64,000 bases of DNA from Gammaproteobacteria bacterium (GTDB lineage Bacteria; Pseudomonadota; Gammaproteobacteria; Enterobacterales; Psychrobiaceae), in contig JABSRU010000024.1 of NCBI GenBank assembly GCA_013214965.1, positions 1 through 64,000 on the forward strand, read 5' to 3'. Shown piece by piece: positions 30,570 through 63,826 of this stretch; within the stretch, counting starts at the first letter, position 1; every line of letters begins with the position of its first letter. The translations under genes were made by a program, and so were the position numbers. The notes below the pieces were generated by a model. It was given only the letters and a program-made list of their open reading frames with translations, did no database searches and was not told the origin of the DNA.

Positions 30570-31643
30570 CTACTTTATTGGTTCACACACGAGTAGGGTG
30601 TGGCCTAGCCCTACGGGGCAGATATCTTGGGTGATTACTAACCCGGCTTTTTGGATTAAACCAATCAATTCGCGTGAGGAATACATCCGGCTGTTGCCAT
30701 TGGCAAAACAGGTAAAGTAGAGTGAGGTGGCATTGAGGCTAAAACTGGCAGCTTCGAATTTTTGGCGATCAATGAAGGTTTCCATGATGTAGAGTTTGCT
30801 GCCAGGTTTCATCATTGATGCTGTACGTTGTAAAATACTGATAATCTCTTCGGGAGAGAAACAATCTAGAAACTGGCTCATCCATAAAGTGTCTGCACCT
30901 TGATAAAGCTGCTGTTCGGGATCGAGCATATTACAAGGGTACGGCGTAAAACGATCTGTTTTACCATCCCGTTCCATATTTTCACTAGCGACCGCAAGTT
31001 GTTGTGGCAAGTCCATAATAACCAATTTAACTTGATCATCATGATTGAGGCATTTTAACGACCAACGTCCGGTATTACCGCCAATATCTAAGATAACTTT
31101 AGGGGAGTCTTTAAACACGATGTCTAGTGCTTGGTCAAAAGCGTGATCAGAATAAAAATGGTCAAATTCAAACCAGCTTTTACTGGTCTTTTCGGGTAAG
31201 GACGTTAATGCTGGATAAACGGTGTCCCAATCGCCAAACACTTTCAAGCCTGCTGGTTTACCTGTTTTAATCGCTTGGGCCAGTTCGCTTAAGCCTTCGT
31301 AGCAAAAATGTTGATTAAATTCAAAGTTAACCCGAGTCATCTCATCATTCTGCAAGAAATATCCGGTCTTAGTCAATTGATAGAGACCGTCGGTGTCTAT
31401 CAATATGCCAATACTGCTGGCGAAATCGAGTAACACTTGCACGCCATAAGATGATACTTGGCATTGCTCGGTAATGTCGCTAGCACTAATCCCTGTTTTT
31501 CCGGCACTATCGATGCTACTTAAAATATTCAGTTCCCGTAGTGCAGAGGTCGCTTGAAAGATAAAAGGGGAGAATGCAATATATTGCGCTTGAGCACGAG
31601 CTTCGAGCGCGGTCATTTTTTTATTTTTATCAAAATTGAACAT
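30570..31643 (-). CDS. SAM-dependent O-methyltransferase, pigment cluster
   Basis: A 357-residue methyltransferase of the winged-helix dimerisation plus Rossmann type used in secondary metabolism. The N-terminal part (LNILSSIDSAGKTGISASD to VQVLLDFASSIGIL) is the dimerisation domain; SAM motif I is VILDIGGNTGRWSL; the post-I acidic loop is LVIMDLPQQLA. Enzymes of this type occur in aryl polyene and flexirubin clusters, where the aryl ring is methylated. It lies at the left edge of the pigment cluster. The exact position methylated is inference. Confidence 0.78.
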   Translation of the reverse strand: MFNFDKNKKMTALEARAQAQYIAFSPFIFQATSALRELNILSSIDSAGKTGISASDITEQCQVSSYGVQVLLDFASSIGILIDTDGLYQLTKTGYFLQNDEMTRVNFEFNQHFCYEGLSELAQAIKTGKPAGLKVFGDWDTVYPALTSLPEKTSKSWFEFDHFYSDHAFDQALDIVFKDSPKVILDIGGNTGRWSLKCLNHDDQVKLVIMDLPQQLAVASENMERDGKTDRFTPYPCNMLDPEQQLYQGADTLWMSQFLDCFSPEEIISILQRTASMMKPGSKLYIMETFIDRQKFEAASFSLNATSLYFTCFANGNSRMYSSRELIGLIQKAGLVITQDICPVGLGHTLLVCEPIK

Positions 31644-31807
31644 CGATCACTGTCTTCCTAACATTAGCTTGATTATCGAATTACTGTACAGTAAAAACGC
31701 AATGTTTAAAATAGCGAAGAAAATGACTATTCTAATGAGACTGATTTGATTTTTTAAGCCAAACTCTTTAGCATTTGACAATTATAATCTCTAAGATTGG
31801 AAACAAA

Positions 31808-32569
31808 ATGAGTAAAAACTTCAACCATTATTGGCGTATTTTTGCGACCGGTGGTTGTTTTGCATTTTTTGGCTTTGGTGGTTTACTGTTATCGTTATTG
31901 GTTTTTCCGATTCAGAAACTCGTGGTCAGAGATGTTAAAAAACAAAAAAAATTGGCCAGAAAAACTGTTCACCTGACGTTTAAGTTCTTCATTGGTTTGA
32001 TGGCCCTTAGTGGTATTTACAGTTTTAACCTTGCGCAAGCGAGGATCTTACAGGATAAAAGAGGTCATTTGATCCTCGCCAATCATCCCTCGCTGATTGA
32101 TGTTGTAGTGCTGATTTCAATCATTCCCAATGTTGATTGTGTAGTTAAAGCCCATTTATTCAAAAATCCATTTATTCGCGGTGTGGTTAAAAATACCGGT
32201 TATATCAGTAATGCCGATCCTGAAGGATTGCTCAATGATTGCCACGCTTCATTAGCGGCGGGTAATAATTTAATTATTTTTCCTGAGGGTACTCGAACGA
32301 CGCCTGGAGTTTCACTTAAATTTCAACGGGGTGCTGCTAATATTGCGGTGCGCTGTCAGGCTAAAGTTAGTACGGTGTTGATTGATTTTACGCCGTCGGC
32401 ATTAACTAAAGTGGTTCCTTGGTATAAAGTGCCTGAGCGTAAATCGATATTCACAGCACAGGTGATTGAGAATTCACCTGCTGTGCCTGAGTTATCATTG
32501 GATATTGTCAGTAAACAAGTACGACAATATAATAACGAACTTGAGTCGTTTTTTAAGCAATATCAGTGA
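31808..32569 (+). CDS. 1-acyl-glycerol-3-phosphate acyltransferase-like (PlsC) protein
   Basis: A 253-residue membrane acyltransferase. The catalytic block I is LANHPSLIDVVVL (H-x4-D type with an insertion of the usual NHxSxxD form) and block III is FPEGTRTTPGVSL. One or two N-terminal hydrophobic helices anchor it. Relatives inside flexirubin and APE clusters are thought to move acyl or aryl polyene groups to a lipid or resorcinol acceptor. Its stop overlaps the stop of the convergent BtrH-like gene by seven bases. The ATG at 31808 with GGAAAC upstream was preferred to 31775. Confidence 0.82.
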   Translation: MSKNFNHYWRIFATGGCFAFFGFGGLLLSLLVFPIQKLVVRDVKKQKKLARKTVHLTFKFFIGLMALSGIYSFNLAQARILQDKRGHLILANHPSLIDVVVLISIIPNVDCVVKAHLFKNPFIRGVVKNTGYISNADPEGLLNDCHASLAAGNNLIIFPEGTRTTPGVSLKFQRGAANIAVRCQAKVSTVLIDFTPSALTKVVPWYKVPERKSIFTAQVIENSPAVPELSLDIVSKQVRQYNNELESFFKQYQ

Positions 32570-33570
32570 GCTTTAATCGCTAATAAGGTTTGGCGTAATG
32601 CAGTTTCTTGTTCGCCGCATTGGCTTAATTTGTTAGCGACATCCTCTAAGGTAACATCTTTGCGTTTTTTGCAAAATAATACCGAGTCCATCGCAAAATC
32701 ACGCCAGTTATCGCCAACAGCAGTGGCTTCTTCGGCCGCCGCTTTTAATTCTTGGTTGTCGGTCAGCTGAGCTGCTTCCGCCATAAAGCTAGCAAACATA
32801 AAGCGAAAACCTGCGCCGCCGGTACCAATTTCTTCCTGCATCCGCACGATATTAGCTAAAAACAACTTGGTATATTTAGGCTTTGCGCTGGCTAAGTTAC
32901 GGATTTTTTTACTGAGAAAATTAATCCCTTTAATCCCAAAAAATGGCAGAATTAAGCCACGCATCATTTTCGCGGTTTTGGCGATTGAGCTATAGATATG
33001 CGGGGTTAAGTCGATATTGTCCGGTACCTCTCGAACCACATACATTAAGCCTTTCGGGGCCAATACTCCTTTGGCGAAACGGGCGCGCTTTAAGTCTTCA
33101 CTGGGACATTCGACTAATTCTTCAAACACTGGATCACTAATTAAATAATTACCTTCGGCTGTTTTTCCATAGACTACTAAATTGTGAGCATTAAAGTGAA
33201 ATCGCATATCCTCAGGGAAATAAGGCAGCCAATAGACCGAGCTTTGTAGTCCGACTAAATTGCCCTTAGCTAATTCATCGTCGAGGGCTTGCATCCCTTG
33301 TTCAGGATTGGAAAACTTTTGGCTGTGTAGTTTAATCTTTAATTTTTTACAGACACTTTTAATAATGGTCTTTGGCGGCATTCGGTAAGCGACTAGCGGC
33401 ATGCCACCAATCTTAACCATCGGTAAATAGACAAAGGTTAGCGCCGACGATAGGCCAAAAATCATTGGCTCTGAGAGTGCTAGGCCTTTAGCTCGAAGTA
33501 AAGTAGATAGTACGCCCGTTTCACAATGGGATGATTGTTGATGCTCAATCGTTAATTTAATCTCAGTCAT
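32563..33570 (-). CDS. BtrH N-terminal domain (DUF4872-type) protein
   Basis: A 335-residue protein. The N-terminal half has the BtrH/papain-like pattern: HQQSSHCETGVLSTLLRAKG with the candidate nucleophile Cys, GLSSALTFVYLP, and FHFNAHNLVVYG with His, followed by YLISDP with Asp, a Cys-His-Asp arrangement. BtrH transfers an acyl group from an ACP in butirosin synthesis, so an acyl-ACP transfer role in the pigment pathway is plausible. The C-terminal half is helical. It overlaps the next gene upstream by eight bases within the dar operon. Confidence 0.75.
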   Translation of the reverse strand: MTEIKLTIEHQQSSHCETGVLSTLLRAKGLALSEPMIFGLSSALTFVYLPMVKIGGMPLVAYRMPPKTIIKSVCKKLKIKLHSQKFSNPEQGMQALDDELAKGNLVGLQSSVYWLPYFPEDMRFHFNAHNLVVYGKTAEGNYLISDPVFEELVECPSEDLKRARFAKGVLAPKGLMYVVREVPDNIDLTPHIYSSIAKTAKMMRGLILPFFGIKGINFLSKKIRNLASAKPKYTKLFLANIVRMQEEIGTGGAGFRFMFASFMAEAAQLTDNQELKAAAEEATAVGDNWRDFAMDSVLFCKKRKDVTLEDVANKLSQCGEQETALRQTLLAIKAH

Positions 33571-33970
33571 TGCTGGTCGGTAACTCTTTTAATTGGTGGA
33601 TGGTTAGTTTCATGACTTCACCGTAGCTGGTGAGTTTTTTGTCACTTAATTTGGCAAATATCGTTGGTTTAAAATGACGTTTGATTTGCCATTGAAAAAA
33701 GCCGGTGGTTTGCGCCAGTGAGCAAATATCAAATCGCAGGTTTAACATATGATAATAGAGCGCTGATACCTCGCCAGCTTTAGCTTGGGCTAACGCTTGA
33801 TCGGTTTGTTGGGCTAAGTCATCCACCGCCATCTGAGTGGCAAAGCTTTCGACTTCCCAACCGGTTGAAGTCACACCTTGGTAGTTACCTTCGTTATCTA
33901 CGGCATATAGTAGCTTTCGTTGCCCTTGGTACGTTGCTGAGTCATCTTGAGGGACATCATCTTTTTTCAT
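33563..33970 (-). CDS. Conserved hypothetical protein of the dar operon
   Basis: A 135-residue soluble protein without signal peptide or membrane span. It reads GWEVESFATQMAVDDLAQQ, then GEVSALYYHMLNLRFDICSL and WQIKRHFKPTIFAKLSDK. I know similar short proteins beside BtrH-like genes in aryl polyene-type clusters but no function. It lies two bases after darB and overlaps the BtrH-like gene by eight bases, so it is part of the same transcript. Confidence 0.7.
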   Translation of the reverse strand: MKKDDVPQDDSATYQGQRKLLYAVDNEGNYQGVTSTGWEVESFATQMAVDDLAQQTDQALAQAKAGEVSALYYHMLNLRFDICSLAQTTGFFQWQIKRHFKPTIFAKLSDKKLTSYGEVMKLTIHQLKELPTSND

Positions 33971-33972
33971 CG

Positions 33973-35115
33973 TTACACTACTGTCAATTGAATAAAGGCA
34001 CTGGAAAAACGACCACTTTCAGGCACGTAACATAATATTTTTTGGCCTGGCGATAAATTTCCGCTAACAAATAACTCTTCAAGGATAATAAAAATTGAAG
34101 CAGATCCGGTATTACCTTTAGTGGTTAAATTGGTAAACCATTTTTCATAAGGAATGGCAAAATCTATCCGTTGCAAGCCGTCAAATAAACGTTCACGGAA
34201 ATAACCCGATGAGTAGTGCGGCAAGAAAAAATCATAGTCATTCGGGCTGATTTGGCGTTTCGCTATTATTTTTAGCAGCGCTTGCTCGACGGTGACTTTA
34301 ACAATGTTTTCATTGAGTAATTTAACATCTTGTTTGACCGACAATACCGATTGTTGATTACGTTCTTCACTGGTATAACGGGCCCAACCTTTTAATTGAC
34401 CATCAACCATATCGCCACCGGCATACATACAGGTATCAAGGGTATCGGCAAAGGATAATATATCAATCCAATCGATTTTGAGGGAAATACCTTGCTGATT
34501 TGGCTGGTTACTTAATAATGCTGCGCCCGCGCCATCGGATAACATCCACCGTAGAAAATCTTTTTCAAAGGCTATCTCTGGTTTGCTATCGAGTGTTGCG
34601 ACCTTATGTTGGCATTCGGCGCTAAAATTACGAGCGTGCATGGTATTTGAGGCTAGCTCACTGGCGACTACTGCACTTTGGCTACTATCACCAGACTTGA
34701 CCGCTAAATAACCATATTTTAATGCTGTTACACCACATAAGCAGACACCCGCAGTGGTAACTACCTCGCAGGGGGGATTTTTTAATTCACCGTGTACCAT
34801 CACGCCATGACCCGGCATCAGCTGATCGGCAATGGAGGTTGCCGCGACTAGGGTATCAATATTACTAACATCATTATCGCTAAATAATCCTTTAACGGCT
34901 GCAGCTGCGAGTGACGCATTGGTGTAATTATAGAGACCAGTGAGAGGATCAATCGCATAATGGCGGCTCTTAATTTTGTTGCTACGTAAAATTAATGACT
35001 TGGCCCGTGAGCGGTGTTCGCCTACTTGGCCGAGTACCTGTTCCATTTGTTGATTTGAGACCGGTTGATTAGGTAAAACCGCACTAAGGTTAGTTATATA
35101 GACATTATTGCTCAT
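33973..35115 (-). CDS. darB: Ketosynthase III-like dialkylresorcinol synthase DarB
   Basis: A 380-residue FabH-like ketosynthase. The candidate nucleophile region is VTTAGVCLCGVTALKYG (Cys125 or Cys127), the His is in DYDFFLPHYSSGYF and the Asn in TTKGNTGSASIFI, which gives the Cys-His-Asn triad. DarB enzymes couple two beta-keto thioesters to a cyclohexanedione that becomes a dialkylresorcinol. The adjacent darA supports this over ordinary fatty acid initiation. Expected partners are acyl-ACPs from fatty acid synthesis. Confidence 0.85.
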   Translation of the reverse strand: MSNNVYITNLSAVLPNQPVSNQQMEQVLGQVGEHRSRAKSLILRSNKIKSRHYAIDPLTGLYNYTNASLAAAAVKGLFSDNDVSNIDTLVAATSIADQLMPGHGVMVHGELKNPPCEVVTTAGVCLCGVTALKYGYLAVKSGDSSQSAVVASELASNTMHARNFSAECQHKVATLDSKPEIAFEKDFLRWMLSDGAGAALLSNQPNQQGISLKIDWIDILSFADTLDTCMYAGGDMVDGQLKGWARYTSEERNQQSVLSVKQDVKLLNENIVKVTVEQALLKIIAKRQISPNDYDFFLPHYSSGYFRERLFDGLQRIDFAIPYEKWFTNLTTKGNTGSASIFIILEELFVSGNLSPGQKILCYVPESGRFSSAFIQLTVV

Positions 35116-35123: not shown

Positions 35124-36038
35124 TTATTCCCCTGAAGGCTCTGAAAAATAGGCCTTTTGTGTCGCTATCCGTTTTTTTGTAAGTGGAGCTATTAGTCTTT
35201 TAATCAAGGCCGAGATAGGCACAACTGTCAAAATTAATGTCACTAAAAATATCACATAGAGCATAAGCCCACAACTGCGGCGTAATGAATACATCGGACC
35301 AAATGCACTGATGATTTTACTCCATATTCGAAAGCTATGTTGACCAACGCGCTCGCTTGCAATAAATTTTTCATTAATCGTCACCGCTGCTAAACCTTTG
35401 AGCATTGGTTGCTCTATTTTGCTAGGGTCTTTGTTGAGACGTGTTGCTATTGCCTCGCCAAAGCGGTCACACTGAGCTATCTCTTGATCTGAGACACCAG
35501 CTTTTGGCACCCAAGAATAGGATTTTTTACGACCGGTAAACATCCACAATGGCGTGGCTAAAAAGCTAAATCCGGCCCCACATTGATCCGTTAATACCAC
35601 GTTATCTACTAAGGTTGCTTGCAAATTTTCGAGTAAACATTTGACTTTTTCTTGTGCGCTTAACCACATGCCACGACAGCCAATCACCGTGACCACTGGC
35701 GTGTTTTTAAATAAACTGGCCGCAAGCTCGCTTTGTAAAAATGACGAGGTTGGTAATGAGGGGGATAAAAACCACACTTGATAACACAAAATTATTAAAT
35801 CGTAATCAAGGCGTGGCGGGCAAGTGTGTTGCATCGGGATTGGTTGCATTTTGACACTTTCGGGAAAGACATGAAAAAAACTTAAAAAGGGCCAAGGGAA
35901 TGGGAACGCTTGCTCGGGTTTCAGTTCGAGCAGATCAACATTAATCTGAGGATCATCCTGTAATGGTTTAATCACCGACTCGCTGATTCGAGTTAACTGA
36001 CCGGTTTGAGAATAATGAATTACTAAAACATTACGCAC
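35124..36038 (-). CDS. darA: Dialkylresorcinol condensing enzyme / aromatase DarA
   Basis: A 304-residue protein of the DarA family. The N-terminal half is flavodoxin-like (VLVIHYSQTGQLTRIS), with the family signatures FPFPWPFLSFFHVFPESV, IILCYQVWFLSPSLPTSSFL and VIGCRGMWLSAQEKVK. The C-terminus carries a hydrophobic span (LMLYVIFLVTLILTVVPISA), so it sits at the inner membrane. DarA finishes the resorcinol ring made by DarB. It starts with GTG preceded by AAGGA, and is the first gene of the leftward dar operon, divergent from the DUF2141 gene with about 60 bases of shared promoter space. Confidence 0.85.
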   Translation of the reverse strand: MRNVLVIHYSQTGQLTRISESVIKPLQDDPQINVDLLELKPEQAFPFPWPFLSFFHVFPESVKMQPIPMQHTCPPRLDYDLIILCYQVWFLSPSLPTSSFLQSELAASLFKNTPVVTVIGCRGMWLSAQEKVKCLLENLQATLVDNVVLTDQCGAGFSFLATPLWMFTGRKKSYSWVPKAGVSDQEIAQCDRFGEAIATRLNKDPSKIEQPMLKGLAAVTINEKFIASERVGQHSFRIWSKIISAFGPMYSLRRSCGLMLYVIFLVTLILTVVPISALIKRLIAPLTKKRIATQKAYFSEPSGE

Positions 36039-36100
36039 TGCATAAATCCTTTATGGCATACTTATTATTGCAAACAGTATATAACAAATGGAATAAACTA

Positions 36101-36568
36101 ATGAATAGTTTTAAGCCGATTTTATTTTTGGCCGCCCTATCATTTTCAACATTGGCAGTCGGCCATCCGCAAGAACCCATTCTTAAACTGTCGATTAACT
36201 CGATTAAGCCAACTCAGGGCGAACTTTATTATCAGTTATTTAGTTGTGCGAAGGGGACAACGGATTTATGGTCAGACTTAACTCCATTGCTGAATGCTAA
36301 AGTAACGGTAATCGGAGAGCAGCAATTTGTGAACTTGGCGGCGACAGTCAATCAGCATTATTGTGTCAGGGTTTATCAAGACACCAATGCCAATGGCCAA
36401 ATCGATTTTGGCACCGGTGGCATTCCACGGGAAGCGGTAGGTTTTAGTGACAACCCTAATTTGTTATTAGGCTACCCAACACCAAGCGATACGGTGTTTT
36501 ATCATGACGGAAAAACGGCAGTGGCGATTAAAATGAATTACCCGCGTCATCGCCGTCGTCGCCATTAG
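36101..36568 (+). CDS. DUF2141 exported protein
   Basis: A 155-residue protein with a signal peptide (MNSFKPILFLAALSFSTLAV) and the DUF2141 pattern: ISINSIKP-like strand, YYQLFSC, CVRVYQDTNANGQIDFGTGG, then PREAVGFSDN. The DxNxNGxID run looks like a calcium-binding loop. It ends in a run of Arg and His (PRHRRRRH). The family is periplasmic and of unknown role; copies are often found beside carotenoid or polyene pigment genes. GGA lies eight bases before the ATG. Confidence 0.78.
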   Translation: MNSFKPILFLAALSFSTLAVGHPQEPILKLSINSIKPTQGELYYQLFSCAKGTTDLWSDLTPLLNAKVTVIGEQQFVNLAATVNQHYCVRVYQDTNANGQIDFGTGGIPREAVGFSDNPNLLLGYPTPSDTVFYHDGKTAVAIKMNYPRHRRRRH

Positions 36569-37124: not shown

Positions 37125-37274
37125 TAATTTTTCCGCGCAACCACAAAATCAGATATTTATTTCAATGATATAATTGTGCCAGTCTAATATTGTTACTGCT
37201 ATACTAAATTTTGTAACAACCGCGATAAAACTACGTTAAGTTAACGGGTATATAGAGCTATATAAAAGGATATT

Positions 37275-38915: not shown

Positions 38916-38956
38916 CTTTATCAATCGAGATGAATGAAATTAATATTAAGCTATCA

Positions 38957-42038: not shown

Positions 42039-44096
<2,058 letters not shown>

Positions 44097-49236: not shown

Positions 49237-49248
49237 GTGGAATAGAGC

Positions 49249-49503: not shown

Positions 49504-50067
49504 ATGAAAAAAATATTACTAGGTTTACTTGTTGTCGCTTATCCCTTAATTGTTTATTTTGGATTGCAATATGTTGAACCTGGTATTATAGCCGCTGTGT
49601 TTGCGATATTTTTCCTCATTCGTCACTTTAGCCAAAAAAGTAGCAACCCGGCGATACCTAATCTCAATGGTGTCGCGGTGGTTGTATTAGGCTTGCTGGG
49701 TTTTAGCATGATTGCTAACTCAGCATTGGCCTTAAAATTCTATCCGGTAGCGATGAGTCTCAGTTTTTTAATCATTTTTGGTTATTCATTATATAAACCG
49801 CCCACGGTGGTTGAAGTGATTGCAAGGTTGACCGAAGAACTCGATCAAGCCGGCGTTACTTATACCCGTAAAGTAACCAAAGTGTGGTGTCTGTTTTTTA
49901 GCACCAATGCCTTAGTCGCCTGTTGGACCATCTTTGAACCCAACCCTCAAGTGTGGCTGATTTATAATGGTTTGATTTCATATGTGTTGATGGGATGTTT
50001 GATGCTGGGTGAGTTTTTGATTAGGCAACGAGTCAAGCGACTAGCTAACCATGAGCCGAGTAAATAA
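49504..50067 (+). CDS. apeG: APE cluster membrane protein ApeG
   Basis: A 187-residue inner membrane protein of the COG4648 type found in APE clusters, with about five to six helices (LLVVAYPLIVYFGLQY, VAVVVLGLLGFSMIANSALA, LIYNGLISYVLMGCLMLGEF). The loop ELDQAGVTYTRKVTKVWCLF is conserved in the family. Its role is not known; it may organise the pathway at the membrane. It overlaps the frame of apeH. Confidence 0.82.
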   Translation: MKKILLGLLVVAYPLIVYFGLQYVEPGIIAAVFAIFFLIRHFSQKSSNPAIPNLNGVAVVVLGLLGFSMIANSALALKFYPVAMSLSFLIIFGYSLYKPPTVVEVIARLTEELDQAGVTYTRKVTKVWCLFFSTNALVACWTIFEPNPQVWLIYNGLISYVLMGCLMLGEFLIRQRVKRLANHEPSK

Positions 50068-50071
50068 AGTC

Positions 50072-51400: not shown

Positions 51401-51743
51401 TTTTGTATATTACCCGCAGGTAGATGTTATTTCACAGACCGCTGAAATGGTAGAGTTGAGTTTATTGATCCCTAAAAATTTGTATTATTTTCAAGGACAT
51501 TTTACTCAAGCACCTATTTTAGCCGGGGTGGCGCAACTCGATTGGGTGATGACGTATCTCGCTAAGTATTTTGATGTTGATAAAACCAAACTCAGCAGCG
51601 TTGACGCGCTTAAATTTCAAATTATTGTTCGTCCTAATTATCGAATTAACTTAATGTTAAACCGAGTTAAGCCAAACAAGTTTAGTTTTAATTACAGCTC
51701 TGAACATGGCCAACACGCATCGGGTAAGGTTGTTTTCTCGTGA
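51393..51743 (+). CDS. apeI: Hotdog-fold dehydratase ApeI
   Basis: A 116-residue FabZ-like hotdog protein. The motif YYFQGHFTQAPILAGVAQLD carries the catalytic His and an Asp where FabZ has Glu. In APE pathways ApeI dehydrates beta-hydroxyacyl-ACP together with ApeP. No ATG exists at the proper place; TTG 51393 has GGAG seven bases upstream and starts LTDFVYYPQVDVI, as in homologues. It overlaps the end of apeH by eight bases. Confidence 0.82.
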   Translation: MTDFVYYPQVDVISQTAEMVELSLLIPKNLYYFQGHFTQAPILAGVAQLDWVMTYLAKYFDVDKTKLSSVDALKFQIIVRPNYRINLMLNRVKPNKFSFNYSSEHGQHASGKVVFS

Positions 51744-53459: not shown

Positions 53460-53510
53460 GTAACTGATATTAGTTTTGAGTTACACCCTAATTTTTATGG
53501 AGTGCGGTAC

Positions 53511-55046: not shown

Positions 55047-55470
55047 GGCAACCGCGTTGGTGTCGGCTCACCATGATTTAACCGTACAGTTTTATGATGT
55101 TGATCCGATGCGCGTGGTTTGGCATGGTAATTATGTAAAGTATCTCGAGGATGCGCGTTGTGTGTTACTCGATAAAATTAATTATAATTACGATGTGATG
55201 GAGCAATCGGGTTATGTATGGCCGATTGTTGATATGCGACTTAAATACGTTGGCTCGGCTAAGTTTGGCTCAAAAATTCGGATTCAAGCCGATTTGATTG
55301 AGTATGAGTCACGGTTAAAAATTCAATATTTGATCACTGACATTGCCAGTGGTCAAGTATTAACTAAGGCTCACACGGTGCAAGTGGCCGTTGATGTTAA
55401 TAGCTTAGAAATGCAATTTGAAAGTCCTAAAATATTGTTGGATAAATTAGCCGGGTGGCTCGATGAATAA
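55039..55470 (+). CDS. apeK: Acyl thioesterase ApeK (4HBT family)
   Basis: A 143-residue hotdog thioesterase. The 4HBT motif FYDVDPMRVVWHGNYVKY includes the catalytic Asp. It probably releases the finished or stalled acyl chains from ACP. The ATG at 55039 overlaps the ammonia-lyase stop by eight bases and has GGGA five bases upstream; the longer frame is a shadow of the lyase. Confidence 0.88.
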   Translation: MAKATALVSAHHDLTVQFYDVDPMRVVWHGNYVKYLEDARCVLLDKINYNYDVMEQSGYVWPIVDMRLKYVGSAKFGSKIRIQADLIEYESRLKIQYLITDIASGQVLTKAHTVQVAVDVNSLEMQFESPKILLDKLAGWLDE

Positions 55471-56050
55471 AGTCATTACTTTGATATTAATGATGTTGTT
55501 ACTAAATTGTGGTAACGCCATCGCACAGCAAAGCGCAGATGAACTACGTTTGCTTGAGCAACTGCGGATCGAGCAAGGTAGTGGTGAATTTAGTCAGCAG
55601 AAATATTTTAAATTTCTATCACTGCCTATTCGTTCTTCAGGGGTGTTTAAAGTTAATCCCAACGCCGCTTTATGGCATACCCAGCAACCGGTGTTTTCTC
55701 AGGTTTTATTTGCCGATGATAATATTTATCGTCGGTTAGCACTTAATGGACCTTATCAAGTATTAGTGCAAAACTCAGAGCTTGGCAGTGTGTTGGGCGC
55801 GATTTTTAAAGCTGAAATATCCACCAATGACTGGTCGATTTCGATGGTTGAAAAGCAGCCTTGCATTAAGTTAATCCCGAAAAACCCCAGTTTAATCGCA
55901 ATTTTTTCACGGGTCAGCTTATGCTTAAAGCAGCAACAGCGCGTGATTACCTTGTGGGATAAACAAGATAATAAAACTATTATTACCATGACTTTACTGG
56001 CTAATCAGTTGTCTCAACAGGATGTCGACGCGCTTGAGTTACCTCACTAA
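55463..56050 (+). CDS. apeL: LolA-like periplasmic carrier ApeL
   Basis: A 195-residue exported protein with signal peptide MNKVITLILMMLLLNCGNAI and a LolA-type half-barrel: GEFSQQKYFKFLSLPIRSSG, VFKVNPNAALWHTQQP. It should carry the lipid-linked polyene across the periplasm from the MMPL exporter. It overlaps apeK by eight bases and apeM by 29 bases. Confidence 0.85.
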   Translation: MNKVITLILMMLLLNCGNAIAQQSADELRLLEQLRIEQGSGEFSQQKYFKFLSLPIRSSGVFKVNPNAALWHTQQPVFSQVLFADDNIYRRLALNGPYQVLVQNSELGSVLGAIFKAEISTNDWSISMVEKQPCIKLIPKNPSLIAIFSRVSLCLKQQQRVITLWDKQDNKTIITMTLLANQLSQQDVDALELPH

Positions 56051-58343
56051 TTATTCCCAGAGTAATGGCTTTAAAGCATTGGCTTGGTTACTGCAATTTA
56101 GTGCTTTAGCCGCGCTATTAATCTATCAACAATTGACCAATCCTTTAGCACTCAATAGTGATATTAGTGCTATTTTTGCCAGTGAAAAATCATCACCATT
56201 GGCGGCGATTACCACACAAATTGAACAACGGGCAACGCGTTCACAAATTGTATTGGTTGGAGCGCCTGATCTTAATGGGGCCATTAGCGCCGCTGATAAA
56301 TTAGCGAGGCAATTACGCACTATTACTGGTATTGCCACCGTCAATGTCATTTTTGACCAATTGCCGACGCTGCCGCAATTAATTAATCAACATCTTGGTG
56401 CTAAACATTTATTACTCAGTGATCACTACGTTAAGTTATTGGCGGCGGGTGACAGTGAAGCCTTGTTTCGTTATCAATTTTCACTGCTTAACCAGGTGGG
56501 TAATCAAGCAGTAGCGTTGAGTGTGCAAGCTGATCCCAGCTTATCTATCGCCGACTACTTTTCCCGTTCGGTGATTGCTTCTAGTGGCTTATCGCCACAA
56601 CAAAATCATTTGGTTGCTCAGTATCAAAACAAGCACTATGTCTTTATTTCCTTTCAAACGGAGCAATCGGGCATTGATATTAAATCGTCACAGGCTTTGG
56701 TTGCTCATTTAACCCAACTGGCTCTGCAACCCAACTTTGAATACCTTTATACTGGGGCTATTTTCTATGCTAGCGCCGCTAGTGAAACGGGACAATTTGA
56801 AATGACCCTCTATGGCGGACTGTCATTACTGGCGATGTTGTTGATGATCGGAATAGTTTATCGCAGTGGCGTCGCCATTGGGTTAACGCTAACTTTAATT
56901 GGCGTTAGCTTTTTATATGGTTACTTAGGATTAAGCCTTTTTTACGACGAAATAAGTGTGATTGCTTTAGTCTTTTCCGTGACCTTAATTGGTATTTCCG
57001 CCGACTATAGTTTCCACGCCCTGACCGAATTAAAATATGGTAACGGTCAACCACAGCAACCTTTACGTGCGATAACCTCTTCGTTAGTGATGAGTTACTT
57101 AACCACAGGCGCTGGGTATTTGGTGTTATTGTTAGCGCCGTTTGTGTTATTCAAACAGATTGCTATTTTTACCATTTTTGGTTTGTTTGGTGCCTTAGTG
57201 ACGGTGTTATTGCTTTACCCATTATTGCAGCGTTATTTTAAACAAGGCAACAGTGAAATCACCCCCAATATTATTAAATTAAATCAGTGGCATCAGCGTT
57301 TTAGTCGCCGTTTCAGCTTAACCAAGCATTTGGCATTACCATTACTTATATTGTTAGGTACCGCTGCTTACATTAGCGATTTTAATGATGACATTCGTGA
57401 TTTTTATGCGGTAGCACCCGCGATTAAAGCCAATGAAGATAAAGTACAAAGTATTCTAAAACAAAAATGGCAAATGCAATATTTATTGATTGCAGCGTCA
57501 TCGCCTCAAGCGTTGCTAGAACGGGAAGAGTTAGCGCTTAAGCAATTAAAACCATTAATTGAGCAAGGCGTCCTCAGTCATTATTCGGCGATTAGCCAAT
57601 GGCTGCCCTCACAACAACAGCAACTTGCCAATCTTGAGTTAATGACACAGGCTCAGGAACAAGGGATGTTTAACCGGCTAACATCGATGCTGGGGCAGCC
57701 GTTAATTATCAATAATCTTCAACAGAGTTTACTGCCTAATAAGTGGTTTGAGACCGCCTTAGGCCGAATGTTTTCTAATCAATGGTTAGCGATCGATCAG
57801 CAATATTATTCGGTGGTTCGTTTAGCGGGTATTACCGATGTTTCCGTCATTAATCAGACATTTTCGGCTAATCAACAGATTAATTTTATTGATAAAGCCA
57901 GTGAAATTTCGGCACAAGTACAGCAATTTCGCCAATTGTTAATTTGGGTATTAGTGGCCGCTGTGCTGGCGGCTTTAGTGGTATTCTGTTTACGTTATAA
58001 TATCGCGATTGCACTGCGAGCGATTGTTAGCCCAGTGGTTGCTTTGTTAATTGCTTTAGCGCTTAGTAGCTTAATTGAGCAGCAGTTGAATATTTTTAAT
58101 TTGGTTGCTGGGGTGTTGATTCTCGCCTTGGGTTTAGATTATTCGGTATTTTTTGCCGAGCATGGTTTTGAGCGAAAAATAACCCTCACTACATTAATGT
58201 CGGCGCTGAGTTCTATTTTTGTTTTTGCAATATTAATGTTTAGTAGTATGCCGGCCATTCGCAGTTTTGGTTTAACGGTCTTTATTGGGGTGTTAGTGGT
58301 GTTTGTGTTAGCCCCTCAAGTCATCAAAGCAAGGAGCTTGTGA
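56022..58343 (+). CDS. apeM: MMPL/RND family exporter ApeM
   Basis: A 773-residue MMPL protein with about 12 helices in two halves, each with a periplasmic domain after helix one. Core membrane segments include GISADYSFHALTELKYGNGQ and the second-half counterpart ALGLDYSVFFAEHG, both with the conserved GxDY motif used in proton relay. It exports the polyene lipid from the inner membrane. It is the standard exporter of APE clusters. Confidence 0.9.
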   Translation: MSTRLSYLTNYSQSNGFKALAWLLQFSALAALLIYQQLTNPLALNSDISAIFASEKSSPLAAITTQIEQRATRSQIVLVGAPDLNGAISAADKLARQLRTITGIATVNVIFDQLPTLPQLINQHLGAKHLLLSDHYVKLLAAGDSEALFRYQFSLLNQVGNQAVALSVQADPSLSIADYFSRSVIASSGLSPQQNHLVAQYQNKHYVFISFQTEQSGIDIKSSQALVAHLTQLALQPNFEYLYTGAIFYASAASETGQFEMTLYGGLSLLAMLLMIGIVYRSGVAIGLTLTLIGVSFLYGYLGLSLFYDEISVIALVFSVTLIGISADYSFHALTELKYGNGQPQQPLRAITSSLVMSYLTTGAGYLVLLLAPFVLFKQIAIFTIFGLFGALVTVLLLYPLLQRYFKQGNSEITPNIIKLNQWHQRFSRRFSLTKHLALPLLILLGTAAYISDFNDDIRDFYAVAPAIKANEDKVQSILKQKWQMQYLLIAASSPQALLEREELALKQLKPLIEQGVLSHYSAISQWLPSQQQQLANLELMTQAQEQGMFNRLTSMLGQPLIINNLQQSLLPNKWFETALGRMFSNQWLAIDQQYYSVVRLAGITDVSVINQTFSANQQINFIDKASEISAQVQQFRQLLIWVLVAAVLAALVVFCLRYNIAIALRAIVSPVVALLIALALSSLIEQQLNIFNLVAGVLILALGLDYSVFFAEHGFERKITLTTLMSALSSIFVFAILMFSSMPAIRSFGLTVFIGVLVVFVLAPQVIKARSL

Positions 58344-58933
58344 TCAAAAAATTAATTATTCAATGGTTCTTGATAATAGTGCTATTGGGTTTAGCCACCG
58401 GTTGTGTTAACAGCCCTGAGCCTAAGCACTCAAGCCAGTATTTTCCATTACAGCCGGTGCCTAATGAGTTAATCGGGCAAGTTTGGCTCGAAAAGTTTAG
58501 TTTTAACGGCGTGGTTAAACGTTCAATGTTAGTGCAAACCGAATTGAATAAAAATGGCTTAAGTTTGGTGGCAATGACTTTTGAAGGGATCCCGTTATTA
58601 CAGAGTCGTTACCACAGTGAAACCGACGAAATAGAGAGTAATTCGACGTTGCAAATGGGATTAGATCCGGCGCAAATATTTCATGACTTACAAAGTGTTT
58701 ATTGGCCGCAAGCCAGACTGAAACCGTATTTATTACCCAATGTTAGGCTGGTTGAACAAATTACGCCACATCAGCGCCGTGATTTTTATCTGGGTGAACA
58801 GTTGATCCGCAAGATAGACTATCACCATAATCAGATAACGGTGGTCGATTTGGTACAGGGTTATCAATTAGATATTATGAGATTAACGACAGAACTAACA
58901 GCATCAACCAAGAGCAGCAACGATGAAAAATAA
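58340..58933 (+). CDS. apeN: DUF3261 lipoprotein ApeN
   Basis: A 197-residue lipoprotein with lipobox LATGC. The DUF3261 features are LEKFSFNGVVKRSMLVQTEL, VAMTFEGIPLLQSRY and DLQSVYWPQA. It starts with GTG behind AGGAG. DUF3261 proteins occur only in APE-type clusters, probably acting with ApeL and ApeM at the outer membrane. Confidence 0.88.
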   Translation: MIKKLIIQWFLIIVLLGLATGCVNSPEPKHSSQYFPLQPVPNELIGQVWLEKFSFNGVVKRSMLVQTELNKNGLSLVAMTFEGIPLLQSRYHSETDEIESNSTLQMGLDPAQIFHDLQSVYWPQARLKPYLLPNVRLVEQITPHQRRDFYLGEQLIRKIDYHHNQITVVDLVQGYQLDIMRLTTELTASTKSSNDEK

Positions 58934-60122
58934 AATATATATCAGTGATTTTGGTCTGGTCAATGCGTTAGGCAATGATAAAGAAACCATTAAATTCCAA
59001 CTATTAGCGGGCTCGCAAGCTGGCTTTAACCTCAGCACTGCGTTACTGAATGACGGTAATATCAACGTGGCAGTCGTTAGTGCTAAGTTGCCTTCCTTAG
59101 CGGAATATCCATTGCACTTTCATAGCCGAAATAATCAATTAGCCCTAATGGCTATTGAACAAATTAGAGCTGAAATCAATGATGTTGTTAGCAAATATGG
59201 CAGTGAACGAATTGCCATTGTCGTCGGCACTAGTACGTCTGGCATTGGTGAAGGTGAGCAAGCGATGAAAGCTGCACAACAACAAGCAGAGTCAATCGAA
59301 TTACCGACTGCCTTTGGTGCTGGTTTTGATTATCGAACCCAAGAGATGTTTAACTTGGCTGACTTTGTCGCCCATGAGCTTGCCATTAGTGGCTTAGCGT
59401 TAACGATTTCCACTGCGTGTTCATCTAGCGCCAAAGCTTTTCAAACGGCCTATGAGTTAATTGATAATGGCCTAGCCGATGCTGCGATTGTTGGCGGCGT
59501 TGATGCAACTTGTGGCATGACGGTTAACGGTTTTAGTGCGTTAGAGTCAACATCTGCCGGGCTTTGCCAGCCATCAAGCGCTAACCGTGATGGCATTAAT
59601 ATTGGTGAAGGTGCGGCACTTTGTGTGTTGCGTAAAGATCAGGGTACGATTCGATTATTAGGGGTTGGTGAGTCGAGCGATGCTCATCATATGTCAGCGC
59701 CTCATCCCGAAGGTGATGGTGCCGTGGTGGCGATGCAGCACGCATTAGATGATGCTGGTTATAGCGCAAGCGATGTCGATTATATTAATTTACATGGCAC
59801 CGCGACTCCTAAAAATGATGAAATGGAAGCGAAGGCCGTCGCAAGATTGTTTGGGCTGGAAACGCCCTGTAGTTCATCTAAAGGGATGATCGGGCATACC
59901 TTAGGCGCTGCTGGCGCGACAGAAGTGGGGTTATGTTGGCTATTACTGGATGATAATAATCGTTATTATGCTCCTCATGTTTGGGATAATGTTCGCGATC
60001 CGTTGATGCCGATGTTAAATTTTGTCGCGGTTGGTCGCCAACACCCACGGGCGCTTAAAACCTGTTTATCAAATTCTTTTGCCTTTGGTGGCAATAATGT
60101 GAGTGTATTAATTGGATTATAA
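58923..60122 (+). CDS. apeO: Beta-ketoacyl-ACP synthase ApeO
   Basis: A 399-residue KAS II-type ketosynthase with Cys166 (ISTACSSSAKAF), His291 (NLHGTATPKNDE) and His325 (KGMIGHTLGAAGA), so fully active in appearance. In the APE pathway ApeO elongates the chain, in complex with ApeC. It overlaps apeN by 11 bases and apeP by 11 bases. Confidence 0.9.
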   Translation: MKNKIYISDFGLVNALGNDKETIKFQLLAGSQAGFNLSTALLNDGNINVAVVSAKLPSLAEYPLHFHSRNNQLALMAIEQIRAEINDVVSKYGSERIAIVVGTSTSGIGEGEQAMKAAQQQAESIELPTAFGAGFDYRTQEMFNLADFVAHELAISGLALTISTACSSSAKAFQTAYELIDNGLADAAIVGGVDATCGMTVNGFSALESTSAGLCQPSSANRDGINIGEGAALCVLRKDQGTIRLLGVGESSDAHHMSAPHPEGDGAVVAMQHALDDAGYSASDVDYINLHGTATPKNDEMEAKAVARLFGLETPCSSSKGMIGHTLGAAGATEVGLCWLLLDDNNRYYAPHVWDNVRDPLMPMLNFVAVGRQHPRALKTCLSNSFAFGGNNVSVLIGL

Positions 60123-60576
60123 AATTAACAACTATCCGATCGAAGCGGTATTACCCCACGATCACCCAATGATCTTAATTGATAGTTTAGAAAAATACAG
60201 TGAGGACATTGGCTGTTGCCAAGTGACGATTACCACAACGAGTAATTTTTTTGATCCTAAGCTTGAGAGCGTTCCAAGCTATGTTGGGATTGAGTATATG
60301 GCTCAAGCGATTGCTGCCTATGCCAATGCCCATGAAAAAGATTTAGGCCATACCGTCGCCATTGGCTTTTTGGTTAGTAGCCGCAAGTTTAAATTGTATA
60401 CTCCACAATACTCATTGGGCGCAGTACTTAAAGTCACGGTGGAAAAACTCTACAAAGATGATTCAGGCTTGTCTGCCTTTGAGTGTAAAATAGAGCAAAA
60501 TGGCGAACTCTTGAGTGAAGCCAAAATCAATGTATTTCAACCCGACGATCCTGACCAGTTTTTAGCGGAGCAATAA
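60112..60576 (+). CDS. apeP: Beta-hydroxyacyl-ACP dehydratase ApeP
   Basis: A 154-residue FabA/FabZ-like dehydratase. The catalytic His is in AVLPHDHPMILID and the Glu in VGIEYMAQAIAAYA. It makes the trans double bond after each keto reduction. It starts with TTG, overlapping the apeO stop, and ends two bases before apeQ. Confidence 0.88.
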   Translation: MDYKINNYPIEAVLPHDHPMILIDSLEKYSEDIGCCQVTITTTSNFFDPKLESVPSYVGIEYMAQAIAAYANAHEKDLGHTVAIGFLVSSRKFKLYTPQYSLGAVLKVTVEKLYKDDSGLSAFECKIEQNGELLSEAKINVFQPDDPDQFLAEQ

Positions 60577-60578
60577 GC

Positions 60579-61343
60579 ATGACCACAACTATAACCAAGA
60601 CCATTTCCTCAACCAGCCCAACTAAGCGTATTTTAGTCACCGGCTCAAGTAAAGGCATAGGCAAGGCGATTGCGTTAAAGCTGGCCAGCGACGGCTTTGA
60701 TATTTGTGTTCACTGTCGCTCAGGTGTGGAAGCAGCTAATCAAACGGTGGTCGAAATTCAAGCGTTAGGGCAAGAGGCGACTTTGGTTCAATTTGATATT
60801 AGTGATCGCGCCAGCGCAAAAGCGGTGCTTGACCAATATGTTGAACAGCATGGCGCTTTTTATGGCGTAGTGTGTAATGCCGGTATTACGGCCGATACAG
60901 CTTTTCCCGCGATGACTGACCATGAATGGGACAGTGTGATCCACACCAACCTTGATGGTTTTTATAATGTCCTGCATCCGTTAGTAATGCCAATGGTTCA
61001 GGCGAGACTGGGCGGTCGTATTGTTACCATGTCGTCTGTTTCTGGGGTGATTGGTAATCGTGGTCAGGTTAATTATAGCGCTTCAAAAGCGGGTTTAATT
61101 GGTGCCACTAAAGCTTTAGCCTTAGAATTGGCAAAACGTAAAATAACGGTTAATTGTGTTGCTCCGGGACTGATTGATACGGGGATGACCGATGATTTAC
61201 CAATTAAAGAAATTAAGAAAATGATCCCATTAAATCGGATGGGGCATGTTAAAGAAGTTGCTGCGACGGTGGCATTTTTGATGTCACAAGATGCCGGATA
61301 TATTACCCGTCAGGTAATTTCAGTGAATGGTGGGATAGCATAA
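60579..61343 (+). CDS. apeQ: 3-oxoacyl-ACP reductase ApeQ (FabG-like)
   Basis: A 254-residue short-chain dehydrogenase. The NADPH site is VTGSSKGIGKAIALKLAS, the NAG motif VVCNAGITADTAF, and the catalytic Ser, Tyr and Lys are in TMSSVSGVIGNRG and NYSASKAGLI. It reduces the beta-keto group in each elongation round. Its stop overlaps the apeR start (TAATG). Confidence 0.92.
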   Translation: MTTTITKTISSTSPTKRILVTGSSKGIGKAIALKLASDGFDICVHCRSGVEAANQTVVEIQALGQEATLVQFDISDRASAKAVLDQYVEQHGAFYGVVCNAGITADTAFPAMTDHEWDSVIHTNLDGFYNVLHPLVMPMVQARLGGRIVTMSSVSGVIGNRGQVNYSASKAGLIGATKALALELAKRKITVNCVAPGLIDTGMTDDLPIKEIKKMIPLNRMGHVKEVAATVAFLMSQDAGYITRQVISVNGGIA

Positions 61344-62572
61344 TGAGAAGAGTAGTAGTTACTGGCATGTCGGCAATCACAGCCTTAGGCGATGATTGGA
61401 ACACTTTCCGCCACGGGATCGAGTCTGGTTGCAATGCGGTTACCTTAATGCCCGAATGGGATAGAGTTGAGGATTTAAATACGCGCATTGCTGCCCCAAT
61501 AACCCACTTTGAAAAGCCAAGCCATTACAAACGAAAAATGGTTCGCTCGATGGGGCGGGTTTCTTTAATGGCGACTCGTGCCACTGAATTAGCGCTTGAA
61601 CAGGCTAATTTACTGGAGCATCCTGCATTAACTGATGGCTCAACCGGTATTTCTTACGGTTCATCGGTTGGCTCAACCTCACCCATTATCTCCTTTGGTA
61701 ACTTAATGGCTAATGGTGATATGCGCGGCGTGACCGCGACCAGTTATATTCAAATGATGTCTCACACCGCACCGGTTAATGTTGGAGTATTCTTCAGCTT
61801 AAAAGGGCGGGTGATCACCACTAGTTCCGCTTGTACTTCTGGCTCGCAAGGGATTGGTTATGCCTTTGAAGCAATCAAATTTGGCCGTCAAGATCTGATG
61901 GTGGCTGGCGGTGCTGAGGAATTATGTGTCACCGAAGCCGCAGTATTTGATACCTTATATGCCACGAGTATCAAGAATGATACGCCACAATTGACCCCAC
62001 GTCCTTTTGATAAAGATCGCGATGGTTTAGTGATTGGAGAGGGCGCATGTACCTTAATTTTAGAAGAGCTTGAGCATGCTAAGGCACGCGGCGCGACTAT
62101 TATTGCAGAACTCGTTGGCTTTGGCTGTAATTCCGATGGTAAACATGTCACTCAACCCACCGCTGCAACGATGCAAGTAGCCATAGAATTGGCAATTAAA
62201 GATGCAGGTATTAGCCCAAGTGATATCGGCTATGTTTGCGCTCACGGAACGGCAACCGACCGTGGTGACATTGCTGAAACCAATGCCACTGCTGGCGCAT
62301 TAGGAAAAGTAGCGATTAGTTCGCTCAAGAGTTACCTCGGACACACCTTAGGCGCTTGTGGCAGCATTGAGGCTTGGGCATCCATTAACATGATGAATGA
62401 TAATTGGTTTGCACCGACCTTAAATTTAGACAATATTGATCCAGAATGTGGTGAACTCGACTATATTACTAAGTCGGGCCGCGAAATTATCACCGATTAT
62501 GTGATGAGTAATAATTTTGCCTTTGGCGGTATTAACACTTCTTTAATTTTTAAACGTTGGTCTGATGCATAA
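61343..62572 (+). CDS. apeR: Beta-ketoacyl-ACP synthase ApeR
   Basis: A 409-residue ketosynthase with Cys164 (TTSSACTSGSQG), His301 (CAHGTATDRGDI) and His334 (KSYLGHTLGACG). In studied clusters ApeR is the second KS, thought to do the first condensation on the aryl starter. It overlaps the MipA/OmpV gene by eight bases. Confidence 0.92.
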   Translation: MRRVVVTGMSAITALGDDWNTFRHGIESGCNAVTLMPEWDRVEDLNTRIAAPITHFEKPSHYKRKMVRSMGRVSLMATRATELALEQANLLEHPALTDGSTGISYGSSVGSTSPIISFGNLMANGDMRGVTATSYIQMMSHTAPVNVGVFFSLKGRVITTSSACTSGSQGIGYAFEAIKFGRQDLMVAGGAEELCVTEAAVFDTLYATSIKNDTPQLTPRPFDKDRDGLVIGEGACTLILEELEHAKARGATIIAELVGFGCNSDGKHVTQPTAATMQVAIELAIKDAGISPSDIGYVCAHGTATDRGDIAETNATAGALGKVAISSLKSYLGHTLGACGSIEAWASINMMNDNWFAPTLNLDNIDPECGELDYITKSGREIITDYVMSNNFAFGGINTSLIFKRWSDA

Positions 62573-63383
62573 ATTATATTCGGTAGTTATTTTAATCTGC
62601 TTAGCGCTATGTTCTTTTGCCGCCACAGCACAATATAAGCTTGAAATAGGTGCCGGTATATTTACCACTCAATTACCCCATTACCCAGGGGCAGATCAAA
62701 AAAAGACCTATGTGTTACCGATGCCCTATATCTTTTTTGAATCAGAAAATTTTGAATTAGAACGTAATCGCCTAACCGGATTTATGTGGAATAGTGGAAA
62801 CTGGCATCTTGATTTGTCTGCTGGCGCCGGCATCAAAGTGAATAGTGATGACAATGAGGCTAGAGTTGGGATGCCCGATCTCGATTGGGTGTTTGAGCTG
62901 GGTCCTTCATTAAAATACTATCTTCAAGGTTCGCCAAAGAGTCCCCAGCATCTAGTGGCTGAAATCTTTACTCGCAAGGCAATAGCAACAGATTTTAGCT
63001 CAATCGGTAATGTCGGTTGGCGTTATGGTCCGGCGATTAGCTACCAGCAACAATTTATGGTTGATGGTGCTAATCACTTAGCGCTTAATATCCGCGTGGT
63101 GGCAAATTTTTCAGATAAGCGTTATTTGGACTATTATTATGGTGTTAATACGCAATATGCTAGCGACACCCGTCCAGAGTTTCACAACAAGGGTGGTTAT
63201 GCTGGTAGCGACTTATCGTTGGGATTAACCTATAAAACTCGTTCGATTTGGACTGGCGGCTATCTGCGTTATTATCAGCTTTCGGATGCTCAGCAAGTTG
63301 ATAGTCCACTATTTTTTAACACTCAAGGTTGGTCATTTGGCCTTGGGATAGTATGGATTTTTTATCATAAAAAAGGAAAGTAA
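62565..63383 (+). CDS. MipA/OmpV family outer membrane protein
   Basis: A 272-residue beta-barrel protein with signal peptide (LICLALCSFAATAQ) and the MipA/OmpV pattern: GAGIFTTQLPHYPGADQ, YVLPMPYIFFESENFELERN, and a C-terminal strand (WSFGLGIVWIF). MipA relatives scaffold murein enzymes or respond to stress. The start is inside the end of apeR, so it belongs to the operon, perhaps as outer-membrane acceptor for the pigment. Confidence 0.8.
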   Translation: MHKLYSVVILICLALCSFAATAQYKLEIGAGIFTTQLPHYPGADQKKTYVLPMPYIFFESENFELERNRLTGFMWNSGNWHLDLSAGAGIKVNSDDNEARVGMPDLDWVFELGPSLKYYLQGSPKSPQHLVAEIFTRKAIATDFSSIGNVGWRYGPAISYQQQFMVDGANHLALNIRVVANFSDKRYLDYYYGVNTQYASDTRPEFHNKGGYAGSDLSLGLTYKTRSIWTGGYLRYYQLSDAQQVDSPLFFNTQGWSFGLGIVWIFYHKKGK

Positions 63384-63385
63384 CG

Positions 63386-63826
63386 ATGAAAAAACTAGGA
63401 ATGTTATTTGTATCTTCTGCATTGTTGTTAAGTGCTAATGTTGCTCAAGCTCGTGATTCAATAACAGAATACTCGATTAAAGATTTATTGGACAGCGCAC
63501 AAGCTAAACAAGTGTTACTTGATTTTCCTTTATTTTTTGCTGATCAAAAGCATGGCAAAGTAGCAAAAAAATACAGTGAAGTTATCACCAATAAAAAAAC
63601 CAATGCGTTTAATAAATCTGATAGTGAAGCCTGTAACTGGGTAATGCTTAGCGCACTTAAAGCATTACAAGAACGCGCCCAACGTGAAGGAATGAATGCG
63701 GTAATCAATATTGAGTCATATTACAAAAAGCGAAAGTTTGTCAGTGCCACTCATTTTGAATGTGGTGCCGGTACTTTTATGGCGGGTGTTGCGTTAAAAG
63801 GCACACCAGCTACGCTTAAGAAGTAA
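63386..63826 (+). CDS. Small exported protein of APE clusters, YbjQ-like
   Basis: A 146-residue protein with signal peptide MKKLGMLFVSSALLLSANV and the pattern NWVMLSALKALQERAQREGM, then VINIESYYKKRKFVSATHFE and CGAGTFMAGVALKG. Homologues are found at the end of APE clusters and are often misnamed excinuclease ATPase subunit; the fold resembles YbjQ-type heavy-metal-binding proteins. AAAGGAAAG is well placed before the ATG. Function unknown. Confidence 0.75.
   Translation: MKKLGMLFVSSALLLSANVAQARDSITEYSIKDLLDSAQAKQVLLDFPLFFADQKHGKVAKKYSEVITNKKTNAFNKSDSEACNWVMLSALKALQERAQREGMNAVINIESYYKKRKFVSATHFECGAGTFMAGVALKGTPATLKK

Follow-up and report, generated by a model that had tools for sequence, protein, structure and literature searches.

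Gene content and layout of the locus

The window analysed here is the whole 64,000-nucleotide stretch at the start of contig JABSRU010000024.1 (GenBank assembly GCA_013214965.1), from a gammaproteobacterium of the Psychrobiaceae. Its positions 30570-63826 encode a dialkylresorcinol (DAR) module and an aryl polyene (APE) module, with reading frames that are open and catalytic motifs that are present wherever they were checked (Table 1). The dar and ape genes named in an initial annotation of this DNA are all present as open frames. A plus-strand run of 25 genes, with gaps of no more than 95 bp, extends from 42063 to 63826 and mixes genes of the two modules, and the G+C content shows no step at the cluster.

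The genes at 44115-48094 lie directly 5′ of apeC and point in the same direction as the ape genes. They correspond in kind and order to darF, darI, darC, darJ and darK as listed in Table 1 of the Azoarcus study (PMC3949708); by this correspondence they are part of the DAR module, which therefore extends up to apeC. The module is interrupted at 36611-41822 by an asparagine-synthase-like gene and a TonB receptor gene. DarB keeps the C-H-N motifs and matches the StlD structure (PDB 5gk0) over its full length (E 2e-142), with a score of 471 bits against NF053539 DarB that falls below the cut-off of 550. The PP-binding score of DarC (18.9 bits) is likewise below its cut-off (20.8). For DarA, searches of Pfam, NCBIfam and PDB sequences gave no match. 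We identify it by three properties: its gene adjoins darB in all 22 loci found in a DarA search that was designed to cover close relatives only, it is 35-70% identical to its DarA-like counterparts in 19 other loci, those of the 22 that were aligned, and its AlphaFold model (20 sequences, pLDDT 87.8) matches WrbA and flavodoxins and ends in a long C-terminal helix. The modelled fold fits a flavin-dependent aromatase. The gene at 42063 was also considered as darA and was rejected, since the flavodoxin-like gene is the neighbour of darB throughout those 22 loci. A DUF2141 gene stands beside darA in 13 of them, namely all 12 from Pseudoalteromonas, Colwellia, Litorilituus and Catenovulum and one from a gammaproteobacterial metagenome-assembled genome (MAG).

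When the 18 APE proteins of Escherichia coli CFT073 were compared with the window by blastp, matches were obtained for 16. There was none for ApeA, and the two ApeN proteins were left unaligned, yet both belong to DUF3261. The initial annotation had described a nearly complete ape set in the usual order from apeC to apeR, and this stands for gene content and for most of the CFT073 order; the departures are that apeB lies apart at 30570 and apeD at 31775, that two genes stand for apeJ and that an ammonia-lyase gene is inserted. The same annotation had grouped an O-methyltransferase and an acyltransferase gene with the DAR genes. We rejected their assignment to DAR tailoring because the CFT073 comparison makes them orthologues of apeB and apeD. 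Six Pseudoalteromonas loci have apeD between apeC and apeE; in Colwellia, Litorilituus and the window it is found beside darE. The MipA-like gene and its small neighbour likewise lie 3′ of apeR in Pseudoalteromonas neustonica and in Pseudoalteromonas strains P1-9 and G4.

The contig continues for 4.4 kb past the window, and no further cluster gene was found there among open reading frames of at least 80 amino acids, either by eye or by tblastn with the window proteins. No RNA family reached the gathering threshold and no tRNA gene was found. Between 41700 and 48300, promoter-like sites occur at chance level, and 14 terminator-like sites were counted against 7.0 (sd 3.0) in shuffled sequences. 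Elsewhere in the same genome, a 3 kb contig (G000:C22:1-3018) carries an APE fragment that could be a second cluster or contamination; its apeB, apeO, apeP and apeN are 58%, 46%, 43% and 24% identical to those of the window. No second close apeR was found in this genome, the next best match being 40% identical.

Table 1. Features of the DAR-APE locus, with positions in the window.
Feature	Position	Strand	Evidence
apeB-type methyltransferase (FlxJ family), predicted aryl-ring methylation	30570..31643	-	50% to CFT073 ApeB over 345 aa; NF053543 FlxJ 471 bits, below cut-off 560
apeD, PlsC-type acyltransferase	31775..32569	+	43% to CFT073 ApeD
darE/DarH, BtrH-related acyltransferase, candidate ester-forming enzyme	32563..33570	-	NF053550 482 bits, above cut-off 300; BtrH_N and DUF4872
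darD/DarG family protein	33563..33970	-	NF053536 182 bits, above cut-off 70
darB, FabH-like ketosynthase, predicted head-to-head joining of two acyl chains	33973..35115	-	NF005293 StlD/DarB 574 bits, above cut-off 450
darA, predicted flavodoxin-like aromatase	35124..36038	-	Place beside darB; WrbA-like fold
DUF2141 protein, divergent from darA	36053..36568	+	PF09912
FadH/old-yellow-enzyme-type flavoenzyme	42063..44096	+	PF00724 and Pyr_redox_2; CxxCxxxC...C motif
darF, ABC transporter ATPase	44115..45029	+	PF00005; position as in Azoarcus dar cluster
darI, ABC transporter permease	45029..46195	+	PF12698
darC, acyl carrier protein	46186..46452	+	DSLD motif; 33% to CFT073 ApeE
darJ, ketosynthase	46461..47594	+	ketoacyl-synt domains; C-H-H motifs
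darK, protein kept in relatives	47588..48094	+	Directly after darJ in relatives
apeC, chain-length-factor-like ketosynthase partner without Cys	48190..48924	+	PF13723; AISAGED motif
apeE and apeF, acyl carrier proteins	48979..49494	+	52% and 56% to CFT073
apeG, membrane protein	49504..50067	+	37% to CFT073 ApeG
apeH, predicted AMP-dependent ligase for aryl starter	50051..51400	+	PF00501; TIGR02372 4-coumarate-CoA ligase 108 bits, below cut-off 335
apeI, dehydratase	51297..51743	+	PF22818 ApeI-like
apeJ, glycosyltransferase (GT2) half	51740-52486	+	56% to corresponding half of CFT073 ApeJ
apeJ, lipid-A-type acyltransferase half	52476-53459	+	31% to corresponding half of CFT073 ApeJ
Aromatic amino acid ammonia-lyase, predicted aryl-starter supply	53502..55046	+	PF00221 528 bits; ASG, FH, Q motifs
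apeK, thioesterase	54985..55470	+	47% to CFT073 ApeK
apeL (LolA-like), apeM (MMPL exporter), apeN (DUF3261)	55463..58933	+	MMPL Pfam 20.3, just below cut-off 20.5
apeO, apeP, apeQ, apeR (ketosynthase, dehydratase, ketoreductase, ketosynthase)	58923..62572	+	46%, 31%, 60%, 61% to CFT073
MipA-like protein and small protein, end of run	62565..63826	+	PF06629 (MipA-like)

Linkage, co-occurrence and lineage among relatives

Linked DAR and APE genes in the order of the window, apart from apeD and the insert, were found in six Pseudoalteromonas loci, Colwellia sp. 75C3 and Litorilituus. The block darF-I-C-J-K directly precedes apeC in the six Pseudoalteromonas loci, as it does in the window, and the distance from darK to apeC grows to ~3.9 kb in Colwellia and ~8.4 kb in Litorilituus. 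Two Catenovulum strains have linked modules in a different gene order, and Pseudoalteromonas G4 and P1-9 carry the two modules on separate contigs.

Among 197 sampled genomes of the order, DarH occurs in 11, ApeP in 81 and a DarB above the cut-off in 10, and all 10 DarB genomes carry both DarH and ApeP (hypergeometric 9.8e-5). The modules lie within 30 kb of each other in four of these 10 genomes (G000, which is the window's own, G051, G161 and G020). By this test, which is uncorrected for kinship, the DAR and APE modules are linked or co-occur beyond chance. Matches to the DarB family at E 0.001 are present in 189 of the 197 genomes; apart from the 10 above the cut-off, two StlD-like genes and one decayed remnant (described below), the weak matches are by score FabH-type kin.

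In a tree of 32 DarB sequences, including four from Bacteroidota, the window protein groups with Litorilituus and Colwellia (81/76, weak) within a 13-member alteromonad clade (100/99) that stands apart from Bacteroidota, by which we reject a recent transfer from that phylum. We also built an unrooted tree from eight joined APE proteins of 12 clusters, and treed five of the eight singly. In the joined tree the window falls together with linked clusters from Colwellia, Litorilituus, Pseudoalteromonas neustonica and Catenovulum DS-2, split 100/100 from the other seven clusters (three DAR-less clusters of the window's genus, two unlinked Pseudoalteromonas, one gammaproteobacterial MAG and G051). 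This split is absent from the tree of ApeR alone and is sharpest, among the five gene trees, for the acyltransferase half of ApeJ at 52476 (branch 0.76), which is 58-76% identical to its counterparts in linked clusters of three families versus 35-41% to those in clusters, plain or unlinked, from the window's genus and from Pseudoalteromonas. G051 is linked yet has the other form of this acyltransferase (33%), and therefore the split marks one lineage and not linkage as such.

The gene content varies further among these relatives. The FadH/old yellow enzyme (OYE) gene is present in all 11 linked loci examined from Pseudoalteromonas, Colwelliaceae and Catenovulum, the window counted. It was not found in the examined stretches of two unlinked Pseudoalteromonas, of linked G051, or of L070, the one DAR-less cluster of the window's genus with enough flank for this check; nor was it found in the stretches of G020 and G161, which stop inside apeC or 1.3 kb before it and leave that side uncovered. 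A FAD-dependent oxidoreductase gene lies between apeM and apeN in most relatives (e.g., L033 7333-8607 and L028 9317-10669). At E values up to 1e-60, this enzyme is found in 18 of 25 genomes and has no match in the genome of the window or in Litorilituus. An ApeB homologue was found in one of 12 and in five of 13 genomes, the second set including the window's genome. A strict alternation between ApeB and the oxidoreductase was rejected: of the 25 genomes, 18 have the oxidoreductase, six have ApeB, two have both (G140 and G200) and three have neither.

For the asparagine-synthase-like gene and the TonB receptor, no match covering most of either was found in the relatives' loci that were compared; a single TonB match, over 9% of its length, lies at the edge of L037. 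One further genome of the window's genus, G123, holds a decayed remnant of the cluster (L058 3765-8526) with broken darE and darB pieces and a MipA piece, followed by a TonB gene 78% identical to that of the window. Because of this neighbour, the TonB receptor and the asparagine-synthase-like gene may be linked to the cluster. Within the insert, positions 36861-37132 have an 82% identical copy at G000:C54, which suggests a mobile-element remnant.

Proposed pigment and competing explanations

We consider it very probable that the locus makes a pigment of the flexirubin/arcuflavin type, in which a 2,5-dialkylresorcinol carries an aryl-polyene acid as an ester. Three findings make such a polyene-resorcinol ester the preferred reading: both modules are present, their genes are mixed in the 25-gene run and the modules co-occur across genomes. 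To these observations of orthology, motifs, synteny and co-occurrence, known pathways add the model for all chemical steps, the ester, its location and its role. The ammonia-lyase would convert tyrosine or phenylalanine to a cinnamic-type acid, which ApeH would load onto a carrier protein; ApeO and ApeR, with ApeC, ApeQ, ApeP and ApeI, would extend it to the aryl-polyene acid, and ApeB would methylate the ring, as in flexirubin. In parallel, DarB would couple two fatty-acid intermediates head to head, and oxidation of the ring by DarA would give the 2,5-dialkylresorcinol. Transfer of the polyene acid from a carrier protein to a phenolic hydroxyl would then fall to an acyltransferase, for which the BtrH-like DarH is the likeliest candidate. 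BtrH moves acyl groups from a carrier protein, and this, together with co-occurrence with DarB, is why DarH is the most likely ester-forming enzyme. The pigment would reach the outer membrane by way of the ABC transporter and the LolA-like, MMPL and MipA proteins and could act there as an antioxidant. The set of genes looks complete, and by analogy with known systems the pigment is probably yellow-orange and membrane-located, with the polyene joined to the resorcinol.

The lyase has the ASG triad, F-H in motif 1 and Q in motif 2 (the tyrosine or phenylalanine ammonia-lyase type), at positions that we assign to the two motifs from alignments. By a quoted rule, F at the first place of motif 1 denotes a phenylalanine ammonia-lyase; FlxA, a proven tyrosine lyase, broke this rule (PMC3992019). 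Tyrosine and phenylalanine are therefore both possible substrates, and the sequence may fit either, the choice not being predictable from motifs. The enzyme is not tied to the DAR module, as three APE clusters of the same genus carry it without DAR genes. In Pseudoalteromonas TB64 (G002:C152:62732-64254) and Catenovulum YM01 (L073 13646-15195), the lyase gene is in two pieces, through sequencing error or loss.

Several observations weigh against a joint pathway ending in an ester. darA, darB, darD and darE lie on the strand opposite to the long run, and the co-occurrence test ignores phylogeny. Close linkage (within 30 kb) is missing from six of the 10 DarB genomes, two of which (G026 and G186) have the modules more than 1 Mb apart and four on different contigs. 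StlD/DarB-like genes below the cut-off are found in two genomes with neither DarH nor ApeP, G205 (G205:C61:15339-16433) and G184 (G184:C1:62955-64061), and G123, the eleventh DarH genome, holds only its decayed remnant. The NCBIfam flexirubin equivalogs FlxA, FlxJ, flexirubin DarG and LolA2 all score below their cut-offs. Finally, apeD and the apeJ acyltransferase are still present. In plain APE pathways, these two are assigned to the making of a lipid-linked product.

The separation of the modules in those six genomes would suit a plain APE cluster that came to lie beside an unrelated DAR cluster by chance, which we regard as extremely unlikely given that darF-I-C-J-K sits immediately 5′ of apeC in the window and six Pseudoalteromonas loci, within several kilobases of it in Colwellia and Litorilituus, and that the modules co-occur genome-wide. 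The locus could instead yield two products, an aryl polyene lipid of the E. coli type alongside a dialkylresorcinol that is free or separately used, with no ester between them. The retention of apeD and both apeJ halves would fit such an arrangement, as would the three genomes of the same genus that have similar lyase-bearing APE clusters and neither DarH nor a DarB above the cut-off. We find it distinctly unlikely, however, as every genome with a full DarB also carries DarH and ApeP, the ape genes of the window group with linked clusters and not with plain ones, and in Azoarcus the pigment is an ester even with a glycosyltransferase and acyltransferases present in its clusters (PMC3949708).

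If the product is the proposed ester, it might be formed by the lipid-A-type acyltransferase at 52476 in place of DarH, and the sharp separation of linked from plain clusters in the tree of this protein speaks for that. We nevertheless think it unlikely: the protein corresponds to the C-terminal half of ApeJ, and ApeJ also occurs where DAR genes are absent. Moreover, the Pseudoalteromonas genomes whose DAR genes are unlinked combine DarH with the other form of the acyltransferase (40-41%), as does linked G051. On a more specific proposal, the clusters that are linked in Pseudoalteromonas, Colwelliaceae and Catenovulum might form a distinct sub-class. In it, the conserved 2,4-dienoyl reductase homologue of FadH type at 42063 would saturate a portion of the polyene or shape the side chains of the resorcinol, and the FH-motif lyase would start from phenylalanine; the pigment would then carry a phenyl rather than a 4-hydroxyphenyl head, and its partly reduced chromophore would differ from those of flexirubin and arcuflavin. 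We hold this to be unlikely.

Relation to described clusters

The initial annotation had stated that flexirubins and the Azoarcus pigment draw on both modules, which published accounts of arcuflavin and flexirubin, the characterised products of these modules, bear out (PMC3949708; PMC3992019). The arcuflavin cluster of Azoarcus sp. BH72 shares the darA, B, D, E, F, I, C, J, K set with the window and its product is a polyene-DAR ester; it differs in that 3-hydroxybenzoate comes from a XanB2-type chorismatase and that the polyene genes form two unlinked loci, whereas the window has an ammonia-lyase and a single locus (PMC3949708). No XanB2-type chorismatase domain was found among the cluster proteins scanned. 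With the flexirubin systems of Chitinophaga pinensis and Flavobacterium johnsoniae the window has in common an ammonia-lyase start, DarA and DarB, a methyltransferase step, LolA and an exporter (PMC3992019), but its ape genes match the E. coli set and its DarB belongs with alteromonads. The plain cluster of CFT073 shares most of the apeA-R set, with its order mostly kept, and differs in its fused apeJ and in being annotated without DAR genes or an ammonia-lyase.

It had also been argued that the locus is special because gammaproteobacterial APE clusters lack darAB. This view does not survive the comparison, as linked hybrids occur in several gammaproteobacterial genera, both here and in print. 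In the survey of Schoner et al., DAR genes were present in 16 of 39 genomes with polyene clusters and, in nine, lay within or next to the polyene cluster (PMC3949708). Hybrid APE-resorcinol clusters go with yellow-orange colour in Pseudoalteromonas distincta/arctica (PMC9966250), a hybrid cluster is reported for strain KMM 3548 (PMC8865838), and marine Pseudomonas have three hybrid APE-DAR types, V1-V3, the APE part of V1 being similar to that of E. coli and V. fischeri (PMC10165715). In common with the window, the yellow-orange strains have a gammaproteobacterial locus that antiSMASH calls as resorcinol plus arylpolyene (PMC9966250; PMC8865838). The other Pseudoalteromonas loci compared here, which are not the sequences of the published strains, share its gene order apart from apeD and the insert; relative to them, the window has apeB and the asparagine-synthase/TonB insert and is without the FAD-dependent oxidoreductase. 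No characterised product of such a hybrid cluster of Pseudoalteromonas or Colwellia type was found in an open-access library, as covered largely by listings and passages.

Hybrid clusters are already in print for gammaproteobacteria, and therefore the cluster type alone gives no support to the claim of a new structure. The suggestion of a polyene-resorcinol ester of new structure is accordingly retained as regards the ester and dropped as regards the novelty. In its sequence, the locus is a new example of an already known cluster type. Its local features are the conserved FadH/OYE enzyme, the ammonia-lyase and an ape lineage held in common with the linked Pseudoalteromonas, Colwelliaceae and Catenovulum loci but not with plain APE clusters of its own genus.

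Here we add a well-defined marine gammaproteobacterial case of polyene-resorcinol pigment genes, offer evidence from co-occurrence for a place of DarH in the hybrid pathway and single out the conserved reductase at 42063. The value of flexirubin-type pigments as a marker of Bacteroidota is weakened by such cases, a point already made with the Azoarcus work (PMC3949708).

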